Part shown: positions 50,900-62,832 of the stretch, in pieces
How positions within the stretch are numbered: the stretch's first letter is position 1
Layout of the letters: every line of letters starts with the position of its first letter
DNA from: Bacteroidetes bacterium GWF2_38_335
GTDB lineage: Bacteria > Bacteroidota > Bacteroidia > Bacteroidales > GWF2-38-335
Assembly: GCA_001769535.1 (NCBI GenBank)
Contig: MEOH01000001.1
Coordinates: 62,001 to 126,000 of the forward strand
Length of the DNA: 64,000 bases
Reading direction: 5' to 3'
Program-made: the position numbers and the translations under genes
Notes under the pieces: model-generated
Seen by the model: only the letters and a program-made list of their open reading frames with translations
Told to the model about the DNA's origin: nothing
Database searches by the model: none

Positions 50900-51496
50900 T
50901 TATGTTCTTGCAAAAACAATCAAAGAATTAATTTCACCTTTATCCGCCTGTCTTACAGCCGTTAAATAATTAGTTCTGGCCACTCCTCTTTTGTTCAAAT
51001 CATATCTATTCCATGAAAAAACCGGTTTGCCAAAAATTTGGCTTATTATTATATCTGCAATCAATCTCGAGTGCCTGCCATTACCATTTGGAAAACAATG
51101 TATAGTCACAATTCTATGTTTAAATCTAATGGCAAATTCATCATCAGTATATGTTTTGTTCTTTAGCCAAAAGAGACTATCATCCAATAACTGCCTTAAA
51201 CAAATTGCTATTTGATACTTTTCAACGCCAATATTCTTATTGGTTTTTCTAAATTCACCTGCCCATTCCCATACATCGGAAAACATTTTTTTATGGAGTT
51301 CCCTGACAAAATGTTCAGAAAGAATATATTCCGGATTCCATTTTTTTCCAAAAGTCAACTGAATTGCTTTTTCAATATTAAATTGCTCAAATTCATCTAA
51401 CTCACCCCTGGTTGTAATTGATTTTATCAATAATCCTTCTTTTTCATCTTCATCAATTGGTGTTTGTCCTTCAATATATTCAATTTTTAATCCCAT
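50900..51496 (-). CDS. Fic-domain protein ('mobile mystery protein B' type)
   Basis: 198 residues. The Fic core reads HCFPNGNGRHSR (residues 133-144): catalytic His and the GNGR anion hole are kept, but the usual acidic residue (D/E) before GNGR is Asn. KMFSDVWEWAGEFRKTNKNIG is the conserved Fic-flap region. Most Fic proteins transfer AMP to a target; the Asn may change or weaken Mg-ATP binding. Its first codons overlap the HTH gene by 10 nt. The pair has the layout of a toxin-antitoxin or conflict module carried on mobile DNA. Confidence 0.85.
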   Translation of the reverse strand: MGLKIEYIEGQTPIDEDEKEGLLIKSITTRGELDEFEQFNIEKAIQLTFGKKWNPEYILSEHFVRELHKKMFSDVWEWAGEFRKTNKNIGVEKYQIAICLRQLLDDSLFWLKNKTYTDDEFAIRFKHRIVTIHCFPNGNGRHSRLIADIIISQIFGKPVFSWNRYDLNKRGVARTNYLTAVRQADKGEINSLIVFART

Positions 51497-51951
51497 AAGT
51501 ACTTTGGCATTTTAATTTTAATTTCATCTGCTCTGTTTTTTATTGCCTTTTTCAGTCTTGATTTTGAATTTTTCTGATTTTCAAGCTGCATTGTTTGTGA
51601 AGTTCGCATAACAATTTCTGTTGCAATCTCCAGTGCTCTGGCCTCAATCATTTCCTCAATGGTTTTTTCCTTGGGGACAAACCCATAAACGAGCTTCATA
51701 TCAATTGCAGCCCCGGCTTCCCTAAGCCCTTTTAATGTAATTGATCCGTTGGCTTCGCGTGCTTCTAACTCTTTTACACTTTGCGGAGATATTTTTAACC
51801 GATTACCCAATTGTCTCAATGACATTTTTAAGGCAGTCCGTATGGTATGCACCCAACCCTTTTGAGGCATTTGCACTGATCTCAAAGGATAAAACACAGC
51901 TAATTTTCTATCAACCTGTTCAATCAGTAATTTTTGTTTTAAAATATCCAT
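51487..51951 (-). CDS. HTH regulator ('mobile mystery protein A' type), partner of the Fic protein
   Basis: 154 residues. An XRE-like helix-turn-helix lies at about residues 35-75 (WVHTIRTALKMSLRQLGNRL...ISPQSVKELEAREANG), with a basic C-terminal tail. It is the first gene of the pair and probably represses its own promoter (51978-52008). It is the candidate antitoxin/regulator of the Fic protein; direct inhibition cannot be judged from sequence. Confidence 0.85.
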   Translation of the reverse strand: MDILKQKLLIEQVDRKLAVFYPLRSVQMPQKGWVHTIRTALKMSLRQLGNRLKISPQSVKELEAREANGSITLKGLREAGAAIDMKLVYGFVPKEKTIEEMIEARALEIATEIVMRTSQTMQLENQKNSKSRLKKAIKNRADEIKIKMPKYLWD

Positions 51952-52008: not shown

Positions 52009-52117
52009 GTATTATTTAAGGTTAATACCTGATTTTTTTCAATTTATCAGAAACCTGTTTCATATTTTCAGATATGCGTTGGAAATAGTTGACCACATTC
52101 ATTGTTTTGGTAATATT

Positions 52118-52146
52118 TTGAAAACTACAATTTTATTTTAATTTTG
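52118..52146 (+). promoter_or_regulatory. Promoter of the GldM-like lipoprotein pair
   Basis: TTG (52118-52120), 18 nt, TAATTTTG (52139-52146). The -7 box contains the TTG that would otherwise open a longer frame at 52144, which fixes the first gene's start at the ATG 52168. Confidence 0.5.
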
Positions 52147-52167: not shown

Positions 52168-53196
52168 ATGAAATCAATTATCGTGTCAGTGTTATTCGCT
52201 TTTTTAATAATACTACTTAATGGTTGTGGAAATAATTGCCGCACACCAAAAGAAACGCTGGACGCTTTTGTTGCCATGGATAAAGGACTAAATGATGCTT
52301 TGGTGCAAATTGAACAGCAAAATGAAATGATTTATCAGGAGTTTGAAAAACAATACCAATTATCAAAAAAAAAGGTTGAGAAATGGAAGAAATTAGCCGA
52401 TGCAGTAAAACTTAAGTCAGAAAAACTCAGCAATGGTATAAACGATATTAAGGTTAAAATCATTAAGGAAGCAGATGAAAATATGTCTTTATTTCTTAAA
52501 GATGGTATAATGAAGGTTGATGCAATTAAAATTGCTTCAAAAGACAACATAGATTTTCCAAAGAAAGTTTTGTTTGATGATGCTGCTGGTAGTTTACTCA
52601 GAAAAAAAATGGAAAATTACCATGAATTTTTAGAAAAAATATTGCTTGATAATAAAGCAGATGAAGAAATTATTCAGAAAATAAAGTTATTACTTAATAC
52701 CGGGAACCATATTTCTGAGGATGGTGAAGAAATAACATGGGAAGAATATTTGTTTGAGGGAATGCCTTTGATATCAGTTATTGCAATGCTTACAAAAATT
52801 CAACTTGATGTTAGAATTGCTGAGAATTTAGTAACATTATTTTTTATGAGACAAATATCAGGAGATGATCATTTCAGTTTTAAATTAGAAGCATTAGTTC
52901 TGTCCAAAGCCACAGAAATTATCGAAGGAAGCGATTATCAGGCTGAAATTTTTCCGGCTGTTTTTGACACTTTGGTAAGACCAGATATATATATTGGTGA
53001 TTACAACCCCGAGACCTTCGAATTAGGTAAAAACGCAATTAAAATAAATATTCTTAATAATGGCAGGGGAAGGTATATTATTAAAGATCCATCCTTAGGG
53101 GAACACACTTATAAAGGATTTATCAAATTGTCAACACCACTTGTAGACAAATACTATCCTTTTGAAGGGAAATATAGAGTTTTGCCAAGAAAATAG
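52168..53196 (+). CDS. GldM/PorM-like lipoprotein A (D1-D2 half only)
   Basis: 342 residues from the ATG at 52168. The lipoprotein signal ends in LLNGC (Cys20). The rest follows the first two periplasmic domains of GldM/PorM, the T9SS/gliding motor protein: D1 starts LDAFVAMDKGLNDAL and continues IYQEFEKQY ... VEKWKKLADAVKLKSEKLSN; D2 follows the block WEEYLFEGMPLISVIAMLTK (W191) and LDVRIAENLV, then EALVLSKATEIIEGSDYQAE. True GldM is ~520 residues with an N-terminal membrane helix that contacts GldL, plus D3-D4; both are missing here. It heads a two-gene operon, 6 nt before a paralogue. I infer a periplasmic-face lipoprotein that could bind GldM or its partners. Confidence 0.7.
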   Translation: MKSIIVSVLFAFLIILLNGCGNNCRTPKETLDAFVAMDKGLNDALVQIEQQNEMIYQEFEKQYQLSKKKVEKWKKLADAVKLKSEKLSNGINDIKVKIIKEADENMSLFLKDGIMKVDAIKIASKDNIDFPKKVLFDDAAGSLLRKKMENYHEFLEKILLDNKADEEIIQKIKLLLNTGNHISEDGEEITWEEYLFEGMPLISVIAMLTKIQLDVRIAENLVTLFFMRQISGDDHFSFKLEALVLSKATEIIEGSDYQAEIFPAVFDTLVRPDIYIGDYNPETFELGKNAIKINILNNGRGRYIIKDPSLGEHTYKGFIKLSTPLVDKYYPFEGKYRVLPRK

Positions 53197-53202
53197 AATA
53201 AC

Positions 53203-54225
53203 ATGAAAAACTTAACAGCAATAATGTTTGCAGCTGGCATAGCCATTTTCTCTCATTCATGCACTCCAAAGGAAGAAAAAAAGCAGGATGAAATGGTGGA
53301 TGCATTTGTTATTGTCAATGATGGCTTTGAACCAAGCAACGAAGTCACCGATTATAGCAATGATCTGATTTATTCGGAATTTGAAAAACAATACGCAATC
53401 AATAAAACCAAAATCAAGCCATGGAGAGACAAAGCAATGATAGTAAAAAGCCATGCCGATGAGTTGATTAATTTTATGGAAGATTGCAAAATAAGGATTT
53501 TGGAAACCGCATCAGAACAGGAAGCCATAGTTAAGAAAAATGGAGCGAGAACCATAAACTTATCCAAAGTTGATAAAAAAGACAACCAGATAACTCCAAC
53601 CCAAATAATGATTGACGAAGAAAGGGGAATCCAATTAAAACAAAAGATTCATGATTTTAGTGATTTTTTAATAAAGATGATAGAGGGGGAAAGGGGGAAT
53701 GAAAGTGTAACCTTAATTAGTGGTCTTCTTAATGTAGAGGACCATATGGGAGAAGAGGGAGATTTTCATTCATGGGAGTCCAATAATTTTGAGTATCTTC
53801 CTTTAATGGCCGTCATTACCATCCTTTCAAAGATTCAGGGAGATGTTCGTAATGCCGAAAACATTGTGCTAAGGTGGTTGTTGAGCAATATTTCCATGGA
53901 TGATAATCAAACCCTGATTGGCTTTTGTGCGGTGGTATGTCCGTCGGATGCAAAATTGAATTATGGTGAGGATTTTAAAGCAGAGGTATTTTTGCCATTA
54001 AGCCAGTTGAATCAAAATGTTGAGATTTATCTGGGAGAGTTCGAAAAAAGCACCCTGGAACCAAAGCCGGGGGCAAAGAAATTAAAAGTTACTGACCAGG
54101 GAATAGGAAAAGTATTCATCAAAAAACCTGCTGTGGGAAAGCACAGTTTCAAGGGTTTTATCAGAGCAAATGTGGATGGTAAAATCGGGGTGTGGGATTT
54201 TTCAGTTGATTTTTTGGTGGAATAG
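53203..54225 (+). CDS. GldM/PorM-like lipoprotein B (D1-D2 half only)
   Basis: 340 residues. The signal peptide ends at IFSHSC (Cys20, a slightly unusual lipobox). D1 reads VDAFVIVNDGFEPSNEV, LIYSEFEKQYAINKTKIKPW and KSHADELINFMED; D2 has WESNNFEYLPLMAVITILSK (W191, same position as in A) and GDVRNAENIVLRWLLSN, very close to GldM wording. The chain ends at the close of D2 (GVWDFSVDFLVE). It differs from A across much of its length, so the duplication is not recent. Same operon and probably a heteromeric partner. Confidence 0.72.
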   Translation: MKNLTAIMFAAGIAIFSHSCTPKEEKKQDEMVDAFVIVNDGFEPSNEVTDYSNDLIYSEFEKQYAINKTKIKPWRDKAMIVKSHADELINFMEDCKIRILETASEQEAIVKKNGARTINLSKVDKKDNQITPTQIMIDEERGIQLKQKIHDFSDFLIKMIEGERGNESVTLISGLLNVEDHMGEEGDFHSWESNNFEYLPLMAVITILSKIQGDVRNAENIVLRWLLSNISMDDNQTLIGFCAVVCPSDAKLNYGEDFKAEVFLPLSQLNQNVEIYLGEFEKSTLEPKPGAKKLKVTDQGIGKVFIKKPAVGKHSFKGFIRANVDGKIGVWDFSVDFLVE

Positions 54226-54657: not shown

Positions 54658-56052
54658 TCAATTCAAGGGTAAAGCAGAAATAATCAACCCGCCTCCTTTT
54701 TGAACTACAATATTTTCTTTGATGTTCATGTTTAGTTTTCCATTATTTTTCATCAATAAAACACCTCCGTTTTCAATTATTAAAGTTCCTTTCCAGATTG
54801 AATTATTGACTCCCGAAATTGTACCTCCATCCAAAATAATTTTACATCCACTTTTTATAACAATTCTGGCTTTGGCAGGAAGCTCAATTTGAGAGGTAAT
54901 AGTTAATTCGGTCCTGTTTTCTATAATTAAATCCTCAAAAAGTCTTTGGAAAAAATTCCAATATTCCTTTTTTGAAATGATCAATGGCTTATCTGAATCA
55001 TAACAATCATCATTAATGTATTTATTTATAGTGAAAAATCGAGTTGATCTCTGCATTTTTGCAATTTGCAACGGTGATAGATATGTTCTGCTGCCTACCT
55101 GATTGGACATAATGTTATTTGTCAGGCGGTCATGATGTAGCAATGTTGTATCATAGGGATCTGCATCCCAATTGTATAAAGGCAAGGATTTACACTCTTC
55201 ACTATTACATGAACTTGTTATATGCGGTGCATTTCCGGGAAAAGGTAATCCAAAAACATCATAATGCCAGTCTTCATTTTCCTTCATTTCCTCAACCGTT
55301 TTTCCTGTACCCCCTCCCAGATATGTGTGTCCAAGTCCGAAATTATGACATGTTTCATGAACAATCCCTCCAATATTTGCCCAATCTCCACAAGTCGGAT
55401 CGGCTTCTTTCTCATTGAATCCTTTTACAAGTACTTGTGATAATTTTTTTGAACAGTCATTAAACAAAGGAATTGACCCATAGGATTGCTTATTTTCGGA
55501 TTCCGTAAAAAAGATATTTATCTCGTTAAAATGATCAGGATTTCTATTATTATCTGAACAAACAAATATTGAAAACGGACTACTATTTCCAATTATATTC
55601 TCTAATTCTCTGATGTTGTTTGAAGAAAAACCCTTACTGTTCCTGTAGAAATAAATATTATTTAATTCAAAACGAATTCGGGTATCTGCAATTGAGACAA
55701 CACCATTAATGTAATCTGATGGTGGAAAGAGTTTACTAAATCTTTGATTCAATCCATTATATAAATACAATAACCTTGGAACACCATACTTTTTAGAATA
55801 CTCAGAATTATCATTGATGTTTTGGAAATTACCTGTTCCATCATCTTTTTGCATTACAATAAAGTTTATCATTACTGTTTTAACAGGCGAATCAGGTGAA
55901 GGAATATAATTAATTAAGTTTTGGTATTTTTCATAATATGTTGGAAATTGACTTTTTAAAGTAATTTCATTTTCTGAATTATCTTCTTCCAACGTCTCAT
56001 TGCATGAGATAATTGAAAATATTAGCAGTATTATGGCACATGGTTTCAACAT
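54658..56052 (-). CDS. Metzincin-like (M43-type) lipoprotein protease
   Basis: 464 residues, lipoprotein signal ending FSIISC (Cys17). The zinc site is HETCHNFGLGH (residues 232-242), the full HExxHxxGxxH metzincin motif, with a Met-turn in NNIMSN (Met315). Length and the LSPLQIAKMQRS block after the Met-turn fit the pappalysin/M43 group. The last ~80 residues (IELPAKARIVIKSGCKIILDGG) look like parallel beta-helix turns. It is probably anchored in the outer membrane and exposed. The CAP-domain gene lies 21 nt upstream on the same strand. Confidence 0.8.
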   Translation of the reverse strand: MLKPCAIILLIFSIISCNETLEEDNSENEITLKSQFPTYYEKYQNLINYIPSPDSPVKTVMINFIVMQKDDGTGNFQNINDNSEYSKKYGVPRLLYLYNGLNQRFSKLFPPSDYINGVVSIADTRIRFELNNIYFYRNSKGFSSNNIRELENIIGNSSPFSIFVCSDNNRNPDHFNEINIFFTESENKQSYGSIPLFNDCSKKLSQVLVKGFNEKEADPTCGDWANIGGIVHETCHNFGLGHTYLGGGTGKTVEEMKENEDWHYDVFGLPFPGNAPHITSSCNSEECKSLPLYNWDADPYDTTLLHHDRLTNNIMSNQVGSRTYLSPLQIAKMQRSTRFFTINKYINDDCYDSDKPLIISKKEYWNFFQRLFEDLIIENRTELTITSQIELPAKARIVIKSGCKIILDGGTISGVNNSIWKGTLIIENGGVLLMKNNGKLNMNIKENIVVQKGGGLIISALPLN

Positions 56053-56073
56053 TCAATACATTTATAGCTATTA

Positions 56074-57141
56074 TCAATACCCATAATTCTGCACCCAATG
56101 ATACCCATACTTTTCATCCTCATAACGGTAGCATCCACAATAAACCCATTTTGGATCGATGGTGTTGTAACGATGTCCGCGTGAGCTGATGCCGTCATCA
56201 ATGAGCAATTCAATAACCGGAACACGGGCGCTTTCAGAGGAATTTCCTGCCCCGTTTTCGTTGCCGCTTTTTAATTCAGGACATTGTTTAAGGATTCGGT
56301 CCCAGGGCATGCTGCCATCACTGCCTTCATGGGCAAAGTAACCACGCTTTTGGGAATCCTGTCCGTGCAGTTTGGCGGCCTTATATACACATTCGCTGGG
56401 TTTTAATATGGTCAGGGGTTTCATGGTGTCGAGCTCGGCAATGATTTCCATTCCGGCTTCATATTCATCCGGACTTAATCCGCCCCATGCGGCACTTTGC
56501 TGACTGAGGTATTCGGCAATGATTTTTGAATACACTTTGGGATAGGCCCGTGCAAAATTAATTTCGAGAATCATGCGCTTTTCGGCAGCCGACATGTATG
56601 TGGCATTTTTGGCTGTGTTCAGTTTGTTGAAATCCACACCTGAGCTGTCAACCCTTTCATTAAATGTATATTCAATTTTTATGCGGTCGCACCTGAACCC
56701 GAAATTAAAGCTGTACCCGGTAAGACTCTTATTAAAATAAAGTCCGATATATAAGCAGTTGGGGTCATGCACATTATTTGAAATGTCACATACATAGGAC
56801 AGGGCATCATCAGAAAGTGTTCCGCTTGACGAGCCCGAGGCCGAACCGCACAGGGTGTTTGTGCCTTTATATTCAGGATTGAGGTCTTTGTTTTCGACCG
56901 ACTTTCTTCCCTGCTCGACCAGTCCGGGGTCCCATATTGCCTTTTCAATGGGCTTGAGTTTTTTCAGGCGTTCGGCATATTTAGGATTGTACTTTTCAAT
57001 TTGCTCTTTGTACTTTGTATAGAAATCGGATGGCTTTTCCCTTGCCATATTGATGAGGTCAAAAACTTCCTTTGCTTTTCCGGCGGGCTGGGAAAAAGCA
57101 ACCAGGGAAATTAGTGTAAAAACAACAGTTAGTGTTTTCAT
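56074..57141 (-). CDS. Secreted CAP-domain (SCP/PR-1) protein
   Basis: 355 residues with signal peptide (LTVVFTLISLVAFSQ). The C-terminal half is a CAP domain: AAKLHGQDSQKRGYFAHEG, SDGSMPWDRI and GHRYNTIDPKWVYCGC...YHWVQNYG, with the typical His/Glu pocket. The N-terminal half repeats the opening of a CAP domain (VFDLINMAREKPSDFY) but lacks the His residues, suggesting a degenerate first copy. Bacterial CAP proteins bind lipids or act at the cell surface; the role here is unknown. It is likely cotranscribed with the metzincin-like gene. Confidence 0.8.
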   Translation of the reverse strand: MKTLTVVFTLISLVAFSQPAGKAKEVFDLINMAREKPSDFYTKYKEQIEKYNPKYAERLKKLKPIEKAIWDPGLVEQGRKSVENKDLNPEYKGTNTLCGSASGSSSGTLSDDALSYVCDISNNVHDPNCLYIGLYFNKSLTGYSFNFGFRCDRIKIEYTFNERVDSSGVDFNKLNTAKNATYMSAAEKRMILEINFARAYPKVYSKIIAEYLSQQSAAWGGLSPDEYEAGMEIIAELDTMKPLTILKPSECVYKAAKLHGQDSQKRGYFAHEGSDGSMPWDRILKQCPELKSGNENGAGNSSESARVPVIELLIDDGISSRGHRYNTIDPKWVYCGCYRYEDEKYGYHWVQNYGY

Positions 57142-59802: not shown

Positions 59803-62800
59803 ATGAAAAATCTTCTTGACATATTCAAAAAACTCAGTATTAATAGAGAGAATGGCCTCTTTATTACATCTGAAAATTTATGGAAAGAAGAGTGTCAATT
59901 TTCAAGTCGCATTGAGCGATTAATTGGGAATAAGCTTAAGCCTGATGCATTCTTCAATTTTGATAACAAACCATTAATCCTCTTTTATGATAACCCCAAA
60001 AACACTGAAAATATTCATAAGGCATTATGGAATTTTAATGAATCGCCAATTGTAATATTTGCTTTTGATGGGAAAATAGAGGTCTTCAATGGATTTACTT
60101 ATCTGATCGAAAAGTCAACATTACAGTTTATTGGAAATGAGGACTGTCTTGGAGACTTTAATTATTTTGAAATTGTTTCTGGTAATACATGGGAAAAGTA
60201 TCAAGAAAACTTACGATATGAGAGCAGAGTTGATTACCGGCTTTTAAAAAACATTGAAGTAGCTAGAGATATTCTAATCAAACAAAATAAGCTAGATGCC
60301 TCGATTGCGAATGCCTTAATTGGGAAGGTTATTTTTGTTCGATATCTTATTGACCGACAGGTCAAAATTGGTTATGATGGTGAAAGTAGGCTCTTGTCTA
60401 ACGATGATCTATGCTCCATTCTTTCAAAAAGAGAAAAAGCTATTGTTTTTTTCAAATACCTGGAGGAAAGATTTAATGGCGATATGTTTCTATTGGAAGA
60501 TCGTGATTACCAAAATATAACTGATCGTTCTTTTAAAACAATCATTAGTCTTTTGAGCGAAGACGATATGGGAAATGGGCAAAAATCACTTTTTAAATTG
60601 TATGACTTTGCCATAATTCCGATTGAGTTCATTAGTAATGTTTATGAATCTTTTATCGGCAATCAGGAAGAAGATAGTGCATATTACACTCCACTATTTT
60701 TAGTTGATTATATTCTTTCTGAAACTGTTGAAGGTTATTTAAAAAGCAATCCCGACGTTTATAATTGTCGAGTACTTGATCCAGCCTGTGGTTCAGGAAT
60801 ATTTTTAGTTGAGACACTTCGGAAAATAATCGAAAAATTTATTGCTTTAAATCCAGATATTAAGGAAGATTCAGACGAATTTAAAGATGTATTAAAACAA
60901 TTAGCGATTGATAACATTTTTGGAATTGATAAAAATCTTTCTGCCATTCAGGTTGCAATATTCTCACTACAATTAACTTTACTTGATTATCAAGAACCAG
61001 CAAGTATTGAAAAATTTAGGTTTCCCAAATTATTGAATACTAACTTTTTCGAAGCTGATTTCTTCAATACCAAACATCTGTATAATGATTTATTAGGGAA
61101 GAAAAATTTAAATTTTATTATTGGGAATCCTCCATGGAAAAGAGGAAATGGTGAAAAATCGCCATTGTTTGTAAAATACATCAATGAAAGAAACAAGAGA
61201 GAGAAAAAAGAGTATTTAGAAACAGAGAATAGGATTACTATTAGCAACAATGAAATAGCGCAGGCATTTTTATTGCGGGTAAGTGACTTTTCAATCTCAG
61301 ATACAGCATCTCTGATTGTAACAAGTAAGGTTTTATACAACCTCAATGGTAAAAATTTTAGAAAATACTTTTTAGATAATTTCATTATCCAAAAAGTATT
61401 TGAATTGGCTCCTGTTAGACATCAAGTTTTTGATAAATCTAGTGATCCATCAATTGCTCCAGCTGCAATATTATTTTATAAGCCTGCATTAAATCAAGAT
61501 ACTACAAAAAATATAATTAAACATATCTCATTGAAACCAAGTCGGTTCTTTAAGTTGTTTAAAATATTCTCATTGTATCGTACCGACATCAAAGAGGTGC
61601 AACAAGTAAAGTTAAAACAATATGATTGGCTTTGGAAAACCTTAGTATATGGTTCTTATTTGGATTTCAATTTAATAATTAGGTTAAAAACAGACTATTC
61701 TTCGATAGAAAATGAATTAAGCGATGAAACAAGATTTTTGAAAGGTCAAGGGGTTACAATTGGAGGTTCTGATGAAAATGACGCATCCCATTTATTAGGG
61801 TTGCCTTTTTTAAAGACAACAAGAAAAAACATACAACCATATTGGATAAATTTGACAATTGAGGACAATTGGGAATATAATATTATTCATAGACCTAGAA
61901 ATGAAGACCTTTTTAGAGCTCCTATGCTGCTTTTAAAAAAAGGTATTTCTAATGAATTTAAAATGACTTCGGCAGTTTGTGAAAAGGATGTTGTTTTTAC
62001 GGATTCTCTTACAGCAATCAAAGCATACAATTCGGAAGATTTACCAAAATTGCACGTTGTGTCGTCAATTATTAATTCCTCTTTATTCTCTTATTATGCA
62101 TTAATTTCATTTTCATCAATAGGTGTAGAAAGAGAACAAGTCCATGATAAAGAAAAGATGCAAATTCCGTATGTTTTTAATACAAGCATATTAGAAGCAT
62201 CTAAGGAAATGGAGTTTTTAATTGAATCAATTAATGCAAAAGATAATATTTTGGATGATCAATTGACTGAATATGAACTAAATGGGAAAATAGAAAAAAT
62301 AGATTTTTTAATTTTTAAAGAGTTTAATTTCACCGATATAGAAAAATCTTTAATTGATTACGCCAATAACATTGTTATTCCAGTACAAATGCAGCATACA
62401 GGTTATGAGAGACATTTCGAACCTATGCGCTTTAATGATCCAAATTTAGAATCTTATGCTCAATTATTTATTGATCGTTTTAGCTCATCATTAAATACAG
62501 AGAAACAACAATTCGTGGTTGAGATTTGGCATTCAAATCAAATTATTGGAATGTTCTTTAAGGTCGTGCCAAAAGATAGCAACCAACAAAGTATCGTTTG
62601 GGTAAATAAAGCTAAAGAAAAATTATTGTCAAAAGCGATTGAGTTATCATCGCAGAAAATAACCGACCAACTATTCGTTCAAAAAGATTTTCGTGGATTT
62701 GAAAAGAAATTCTTTTACATTATTAAACCAAATGAAAAAAGGTTGTGGCATAAAGCTATTGGTTATCAAGATGTAGATGAATTTATGGATGCAATCCTCA

Positions 62801-62832
62801 AAACAAACAGGAGGACGTATAGTGGAAAATAA
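59803..62832 (+). CDS. N6-adenine DNA methylase, Eco57I/type IIG-like, with degenerate N-terminal nuclease domain
   Basis: 1009 residues. The N-terminal ~110 have the shape of a PD-(D/E)XK nuclease domain of type IIG/Eco57I enzymes (PDAFFNFDNKPLILFYD, P47-D63, then VIFAFDGKIEVFNGF), but the expected E-x-K is F-Y-D, so it is probably inactive. The methylase core has motif I DPACGSG (326-332), IFGIDKNLSAIQVA, and catalytic NPPW (442-445). The C-terminal ~400 residues, with a TaqI/Eco57I-type segment (LHVVSSIINSSLFSYYALIS), should hold target recognition. The very AT-rich gene (14 of 60 G/C in a sample at 61081-61140) looks acquired. A PD-(D/E)XK gene overlaps its end. Confidence 0.85.
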   Translation: MKNLLDIFKKLSINRENGLFITSENLWKEECQFSSRIERLIGNKLKPDAFFNFDNKPLILFYDNPKNTENIHKALWNFNESPIVIFAFDGKIEVFNGFTYLIEKSTLQFIGNEDCLGDFNYFEIVSGNTWEKYQENLRYESRVDYRLLKNIEVARDILIKQNKLDASIANALIGKVIFVRYLIDRQVKIGYDGESRLLSNDDLCSILSKREKAIVFFKYLEERFNGDMFLLEDRDYQNITDRSFKTIISLLSEDDMGNGQKSLFKLYDFAIIPIEFISNVYESFIGNQEEDSAYYTPLFLVDYILSETVEGYLKSNPDVYNCRVLDPACGSGIFLVETLRKIIEKFIALNPDIKEDSDEFKDVLKQLAIDNIFGIDKNLSAIQVAIFSLQLTLLDYQEPASIEKFRFPKLLNTNFFEADFFNTKHLYNDLLGKKNLNFIIGNPPWKRGNGEKSPLFVKYINERNKREKKEYLETENRITISNNEIAQAFLLRVSDFSISDTASLIVTSKVLYNLNGKNFRKYFLDNFIIQKVFELAPVRHQVFDKSSDPSIAPAAILFYKPALNQDTTKNIIKHISLKPSRFFKLFKIFSLYRTDIKEVQQVKLKQYDWLWKTLVYGSYLDFNLIIRLKTDYSSIENELSDETRFLKGQGVTIGGSDENDASHLLGLPFLKTTRKNIQPYWINLTIEDNWEYNIIHRPRNEDLFRAPMLLLKKGISNEFKMTSAVCEKDVVFTDSLTAIKAYNSEDLPKLHVVSSIINSSLFSYYALISFSSIGVEREQVHDKEKMQIPYVFNTSILEASKEMEFLIESINAKDNILDDQLTEYELNGKIEKIDFLIFKEFNFTDIEKSLIDYANNIVIPVQMQHTGYERHFEPMRFNDPNLESYAQLFIDRFSSSLNTEKQQFVVEIWHSNQIIGMFFKVVPKDSNQQSIVWVNKAKEKLLSKAIELSSQKITDQLFVQKDFRGFEKKFFYIIKPNEKRLWHKAIGYQDVDEFMDAILKTNRRTYSGK
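62809..62814 (+). promoter_or_regulatory. Perfect Shine-Dalgarno that sets the nuclease start
   Basis: AGGAGG lies 7 nt upstream of the GTG at 62822 and inside the end of the methylase gene. It supports GTG 62822 over an earlier in-frame ATG at 62777. Confidence 0.7.

Follow-up and report, generated by a model that had tools for sequence, protein, structure and literature searches.

GldM connects a proton-driven inner-membrane motor with an outer-membrane ring (PMC10202324, PMC5790014), and its domains are D1 (residues 32-232), D2 (233-320), D3 (321-405) and D4 (406-513) (PMC5790014). Two tandem genes of Bacteroidetes bacterium GWF2_38_335 raise the question of what a GldM is for when it is reduced to D1 and D2 and starts like a lipoprotein. 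The window, i.e., the whole stretch of 64,000 nucleotides that was analysed, contains gene A (52168..53196, forward strand, 342 amino acids) and gene B (53203..54225, forward strand, 340 amino acids), both identified by profile, model and fold matches as D1-D2 GldM paralogues and predicted lipoproteins. Their coordinates, strand and order (A, then B) are those given by an earlier sequence-only reading, and, as that reading stated, both products are shorter than GldM, which has 541 residues in the same genome. Since only 6 nt separate the two genes on the same strand, they are probably transcribed together. Gene A starts with ATG, and a longer TTG frame opens at 52144. A promoter-like TTTG-N18-TAATTTTG sequence, which we take to be the Bacteroidota-type consensus, is found ahead of A at 52117..52146 (forward strand), as a pattern match within the 219 nt 5' of A that carries no chance estimate.

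Homology of A and B to D1 and D2 of GldM

A and B are homologues of GldM/PorM that span D1 and D2 only. The Pfam domain GldM_1st matched residues 30-221 of A (E 1.1e-31) and 31-229 of B (E 2.7e-36), and GldM_2nd matched residues 239-339 of A above its cut-off (E 2e-8). In B, GldM_2nd reached 22.1 bits (E 2.2e-4) against a cut-off of 24.4; its D2 is further backed by the predicted model and by the TIGR03517 alignment. This last profile (GldM) aligned over 30-321 (A) and 31-319 (B) of 524, with scores of 115.1 and 117.6 bits, below the curated cut-off of 180. A profile of A, B and a third copy, C, searched against 177,635 PDB sequences gave eight matches at E <= 0.01, all of them PorM/GldM, the best being PorM 7cmg (E 1.5e-33). 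Sequence identity to GldM of the same genome is 41% for A and 37% for B, with the core motifs kept, and A and B, both open frames, have diverged to 31% identity. Trp191 is invariant and stands at position 191 in both, as had been noticed.

Single-chain AlphaFold models were obtained with mean pLDDT values of 87.8 (A) and 84.3 (B), from an input alignment of A, B and 19 GldM rows that already includes GldM. According to Foldseek (E <= 0.001), PorM/GldM entries ranked first and made up 15 of the 16 matches of A and 15 of the 21 of B; the remaining matches (one and six, respectively) are unrelated folds with TM-scores of at most 0.21 of the query. The PDB profile result and the Foldseek ranking together exclude a chance match. 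Whole-chain TM-scores to PorM/GldM, normalised to the query, are low at 0.41-0.53, which probably reflects a different placement of the two domains. In the alignment with VIA-align 2, the fit to 7sau_A lies within D1 (Z 24.3, rmsd 1.8 over 194 residues for A; Z 22.6, rmsd 2.1 over 190 residues for B), and 7cmg_A, which includes D2, gave Z 24.5 and 23.0 with rmsd 14.5 and 18.3 for A and B. The nine PorM/GldM entries ranged from Z 16.5 to 24.5, and the next rows, mostly immunoglobulin-like folds matched by D2, reached at best Z 8.6 and 8.8. Pfam, PDB profile, AlphaFold and Foldseek thus agree with the initial proposal of a D1-D2 half of GldM that lacks the motor helix, and the comparison with PorM/GldM structures gave strong matches to D1 and D2 only.

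The domain borders follow from these matches. In A, D1 is a helical domain of residues 28-230 (52249..52857, forward strand; GldM_1st and the 7sau_A fit) that keeps the long first helix, and D2 is a beta sandwich of residues 239-340 (52882..53187, forward strand; GldM_2nd and strands in the model). In B, D1 covers residues 25-231 (53275..53895, forward strand; GldM_1st and the 7sau_A fit) and D2 residues 241-340 (53923..54222, forward strand; GldM_2nd under cut-off and strands in the model). The models place the retained first helix at residues 28-65 of A and 25-66 of B.

Missing parts and the predicted lipid anchor

The first ~30 residues of GldM of the same genome, with its PRQRMI start and membrane helix, are replaced in A and B by a signal-like helix and Cys20; in A this helix comprises residues 1-19 (52168..52224, forward strand; sequence and model). 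The N-terminal helix of GldM, around which the GldL pentamer is wrapped, is absent from both proteins. At the other end both frames stop at the D2/D3 boundary, and D3 and D4 are absent. Both genes also lie outside the gldKLMN locus, where the place of GldM is taken by the 541-residue GldM on another contig. In the published structures, helix alpha1 mediates the packing of GldM D1 dimers, D2 domains swap strands 1 and 2, and the D2-D3 junction is less compact and forms a hinge seen in the crystals (PMC5790014). D4 of PorM alone suffices for PorN binding, and PorK binding requires D2-D3 plus D4 (PMC5790014). Set against these roles, the domain content of A and B indicates that the elements for dimerisation are still present, and that the contacts with motor and ring are gone. 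Binding of GldK/GldN in place of GldM, one of the roles first suggested for them, is disfavoured because the ring-binding D4 is missing, as is D3.

A and B might also be decaying, truncated copies of gldM, as their length and the lack of such a match in the sister species would allow. Both frames are open and divergent, still model as D1-D2 and end cleanly at a domain border; the same form is found in other families; and no D3-D4 remnant was found beside them in the window (best tblastn E 0.81). We regard decay as very improbable.

Cys20 (codon 52225..52227 in A and 53260..53262 in B, forward strand) follows a short hydrophobic segment in both proteins and is the predicted lipidation site. The Cys is invariant in A, B and C (3/3) and in 8/8 other D1-D2 proteins, which are 20-30% identical to the first row of that set. 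The strict lipobox pattern at -3 to -1, which we take to be the Bacteroidota lipoprotein signal, is found in 10 of 13 D1-D2 lipoproteins, C included (one of the 13 sequences is a fragment and another ends at a contig edge). The three exceptions are A, with an atypical Asn at -2, B, with an atypical His at -2, and the beta protein of locus L058, with Leu at -1. Lipidation of this Cys is likely for the group as a whole, with A and B a little less certain owing to their -2 residue. The lipoprotein signal originally read in both proteins therefore stands as regards a Cys20 after a signal-like helix, and not as regards the strict lipobox, which fails at -2. The surface-export rule of C. canimorsus, C-X-K-(D/E)2-X (PMC5080379), is followed by neither A nor B, which is a weak indication as the rule comes from another taxon.

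Residues 2-19 could instead remain a membrane helix, making A and B inner-membrane signal anchors rather than lipoproteins. The atypical -2 residues would fit this, as would the helix at 2-19 in the model of A, of low confidence (block means 54 and 65), and the existence, in another genome, of a D1-D2 protein that is anchored by an ordinary membrane helix (L057, G305). It is nevertheless improbable, given that the Cys is correctly placed in A, B, C and all eight others and that most of the group passes the strict pattern.

GldM halves in the same genome and in other genomes

The genome of A and B (5.27 Mb in 29 contigs, order Bacteroidales) contains four GldM_1st matches: GldM, A, B and C, the last being a third D1-D2 lipoprotein of 341 amino acids on another contig (L004:1132-2157). 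The GldM locus comprises genes for a PorP-like protein, a GldK-like lipoprotein and a GldL-like protein (the three recognised by eye), gldM directly after the GldL-like gene, and two tandem GldN genes (L024:9702-11909, forward strand; Pfam GldN 1.2e-44 and 3.6e-41). GldM_4th has eight matches in this genome, five above cut-off, GldM counted. Six exported-type proteins of 204-220 amino acids consist of D3-D4 only and are encoded by three tandem pairs (L181:5029-6308, reverse strand; L182:4729-6011, forward strand; L185:4048-5349, forward strand), assigned by GldM_4th and by reading. GldM_4th matches five of the six, three of these above cut-off, and the sixth was recognised from adjacency to its partner and alignment; the likely signal-peptidase site carries Gln in all six. 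The same genome also has an nSTAND-TM-D3-D4 protein (L183:5145-7238, reverse strand; Pfam nSTAND1, GldM_3rd and GldM_4th) and, at L184, two short tandem genes that cover part of D4, one of them with a weak match and the other recognised by eye. Similar D3-D4 proteins are found in other families, and form tandem pairs in G226 and G305. Judged by sequence, GldM is divided at the D2/D3 hinge within one genome, with both halves paired, and the GldM arm has apparently been cut at this hinge and reused in pieces. At least two matches to A8 (D3-D4) were present in five of the six genomes with D1-D2 lipoproteins, compared with 72 of 393 overall (Fisher p 0.0009), an association that is no proof, since three of the six genomes belong to one family and some of the matches counted are M56 proteins or split hits.

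The paired halves could form a split, motorless GldM, in which A:B and D3-D4 heterodimers would join at the D2/D3 hinge and reach the GldK/GldN ring without GldL, as static or exchangeable arms alongside the normal motor. In the alignment the Cys sits where the GldM helix exits the membrane, so that such an arm could occupy the position of GldM if the lipoproteins stay in the inner membrane. We consider this arrangement unlikely.

One set compared consisted of 60 relatives from 59 families, the genome of A and B and its sister species G001 sharing one. GldM_1st was present in 57 of the 60, and extra GldM_1st matches were read at nine places, one of which (L022) gave no listed frame. The frames read encode GldL-like polytopic proteins with D1 (L016, L018, L019, L020 and L021), two fusions (L015 and L025) and a single-helix D1 protein (L017). 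In the sister species (95% complete, and the only other species of the genus or family compared), GldM is the sole GldM_1st match. This genome also showed a second match to A3 and a second match to A8, the latter at C145, residues 143-210 of 211.

Within the Bacteroidales, D1-D2 lipoproteins were found in at least six of 393 genomes from four families (G000, which is the genome of A and B, G166, G259, G263, G328 and G343), a lower bound, as five or six candidates were scored per genome. The search for further members thus yielded copy C and divergent lipoproteins in at least five other genomes from three further families. Three of these genomes (G166, G259 and G263) have tandem alpha-beta pairs. 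In G263 the first gene of the pair is split in two frames (L059:4170-4946, forward strand), by assembly error or decay. The D2/D3 boundary is the end point of every complete member; the beta protein of L064 stops at a contig end. Members of families f62, f66 and f89 lack the Trp-Glu pair, and some of them keep the Trp. Beyond the order, 395 genomes sampled from the phylum (47 with any match) yielded no recognised D1-D2 lipoprotein in a search that used one profile, scored at most six candidates per genome and set aside a few weak short-frame matches (e.g., G598, G733 and G729; 206-214 amino acids, E 4e-6 to 1e-3). A scan of named genomes with A2 returned no relatives.

In the phylogenetic trees A and B group with GldM of their own genus (support 99/95 in the 39-row tree, SH-aLRT 96 in the 66-row tree), and the D1-D2 lipoproteins of other families fall elsewhere. 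One group (100/98) unites the beta members of f62 and f66, and another (99/88) the alpha members of f62, which the broken alpha gene of f66 matches in blastp. A single clade of all D1-D2 proteins (12 rows including L057) is not rejected (AU p 0.129); the values fall to 0.021 for 11 rows without L057 and 0.025 when C is also left out, for row sets picked post hoc from the tree and involving long branches. A, B and C as one clade gave AU p 0.713, with a likelihood above that of the free tree. These results suggest, short of proof, more than one origin for the lipoprotein form.

The grouping with GldM of the genus, together with the fact that the closest GldM to A and B is that of the same genome, would suit a mixed dimer. 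In it, one chain would be GldM and the other A or B, held together by the retained first helix and by swapped D2 strands, and A or B would act as a regulator that leaves the motor half-armed and braked. Such a dimer would require that a single GldL ring accommodate both a transmembrane helix and a lipid anchor, and the tandem arrangement suggests that A pairs with B, which makes a mixed dimer distinctly unlikely.

Nine loci, namely those of A-B, of C and of the lipoproteins found in other families, were read by eye from the first residues of each frame and compared by blastp among frames; none of the adjoining genes was recognised as a T9SS gene. A SpoIIE phosphatase or kinase-type gene adjoins C (L023) and the lipoproteins of L059 and L066, in varying orientation, with blastp identities of 35.9% over 309, 34.5% over 226 and 41.5% over 65 amino acids. 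Receptor-like genes near L059 (L059:1-7715) and L066 (L066:474-5023) are 32% identical over 200 amino acids, and these two loci may have a common neighbourhood; SpoIIE phosphatase/kinase-type and receptor-like genes are taken here to be common genes. The neighbours of L058 and L059 gave one weak blastp match (26%). Some genes are shared among L023, L059 and L066, and no neighbour is common to all nine loci.

Gene A itself adjoins genes for the mobile mystery proteins B (Fic) and A (TIGR02613 and TIGR02612; window 50900-51951, reverse strand). Further along the window are two secreted-type proteins (54658-57141, reverse strand), one with a weak metallopeptidase match under cut-off and the other with a CAP domain, and a type IIG restriction enzyme-methyltransferase (59803-62832, forward strand; PADLOC E 5.9e-303). 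At E <= 0.001 neither A nor B had a PADLOC match that would point to a defence role. The accessory island proposed from the neighbouring genes is plausible: the mobile mystery genes, the type IIG enzyme, the GC content of A (0.31) and the lack of an extra GldM_1st match in the sister species agree with it, whereas the GC content of B (0.37) is near that of the window (0.38) and copy C lies elsewhere in the genome.

Parts of GldM are also found on other proteins. In several proteins, some of them encoded in tandem, GldL-like multi-helix segments with KIQHWPGA-type repeats lead into a GldM-like helix and then D1 (L018:3876-6439, L021:5033-7592, L065:87-1517, L016, L019 and L071); Pfam GldL_N and GldM_1st are both shown for L018 and L065, and these fusions are possible single-chain GldL-GldM relatives. 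BlaR1-type M56 peptidases carry a C-terminal D3-D4 (L189:415-2079 by Pfam; L191, L192, L214 and L217 by eye). A protein of G047 (L015:4092-5794, reverse strand) resembles the nSTAND-type protein of L183 but has D1-D2, and a D3-D4 frame follows it. In G013, L025:4909-6621 combines a zinc-ribbon-like start, a membrane helix and D1-D4 (by eye). As halves of GldM occur on nSTAND and M56 proteins with no evident T9SS role, GldM folds may be general modules. A and B would then derive from a duplicated D1-D2 that serves to bind a ligand or, by dimerising, as a scaffold, without a role in T9SS. The nine loci with no T9SS gene recognised by eye, the signalling-type genes at three of them, the lack of a second GldM_1st match in the sister species and the members without the Trp-Glu pair, some of which keep the Trp, all speak for such a module, as do the zinc-ribbon and GldL-like proteins. 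The core motifs and the identity that A and B retain to GldM of the same genome speak against it, and we hold it to be possible, if on balance doubtful.

Proposed role and comparison with known systems

The explanation that we favour, although we put it at somewhat less than an even chance, is that A and B are dimer-forming, lipid-anchored arm bases derived from GldM, without motor or ring contacts, near T9SS. Cys20 would be lipidated, so that a lipid anchor takes over from the motor helix. Two chains, probably A with B, would dimerise via the long first helix that both have kept and via the D2 strands, as GldM chains do. The A:B dimer could neither turn with GldL nor reach the ring through D4, and would serve as a static periplasmic strut or adaptor close to T9SS; one of the D3-D4 pairs encoded elsewhere in the genome might complete it. 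This explanation is supported by the D1-D2 homology in sequence and model, the long first helix, the recurrence of tandem pairs, the invariant Cys, the ends at the D2/D3 junction, the separate D3-D4 pairs, the gldKLMN-type locus in the same genome and the grouping with GldM of the genus. The strongest points against a T9SS link are the nine loci with no adjoining T9SS gene recognised and the GldM parts on M56 and nSTAND proteins; the sister species without an extra GldM_1st match and the atypical lipoboxes of A and B also weigh against the explanation, as does a two-hybrid study in which D1 alone or D4 alone showed no self-interaction (PMC5790014).

Independent, paired and exported halves, cut at a hinge seen in crystals, suggest that each half folds separately and is maintained apart from the motor, and they are natural constructs for asking what each half of GldM does. 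Should the pieces act on T9SS, they would add a layer of passive or regulatory arms, of which no account was found in the literature searched.

GldJ and GldO, which are not half-length, are like A and B extra paralogues of a T9SS core part. In F. johnsoniae they are paralogues of GldK and GldN, respectively, and take part in complex formation (PMC10202324), whereas no such link is known for the half-length A and B. Among the literature matches listed, which covered few subscription papers or preprints, none described D1-D2 lipoproteins or D3-D4 proteins. The statement of the sequence-only reading that no GldM paralogue of this form had been described holds for these matches, and needs the qualification that F. 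johnsoniae has "other extra orthologues of porM" (PMC5790014); these resemble A and B in being extra PorM-like genes beside a complete set, and differ in that no lipoprotein form is mentioned in the part of that paper cited here. Compared with GldM/PorM, finally, A and B lack the GldL-binding helix and D3-D4, lie away from gldL and have a predicted lipid anchor, and they share with it D1 and D2, as profiles, PDB sequences and folds all show, and the same group in the tree.
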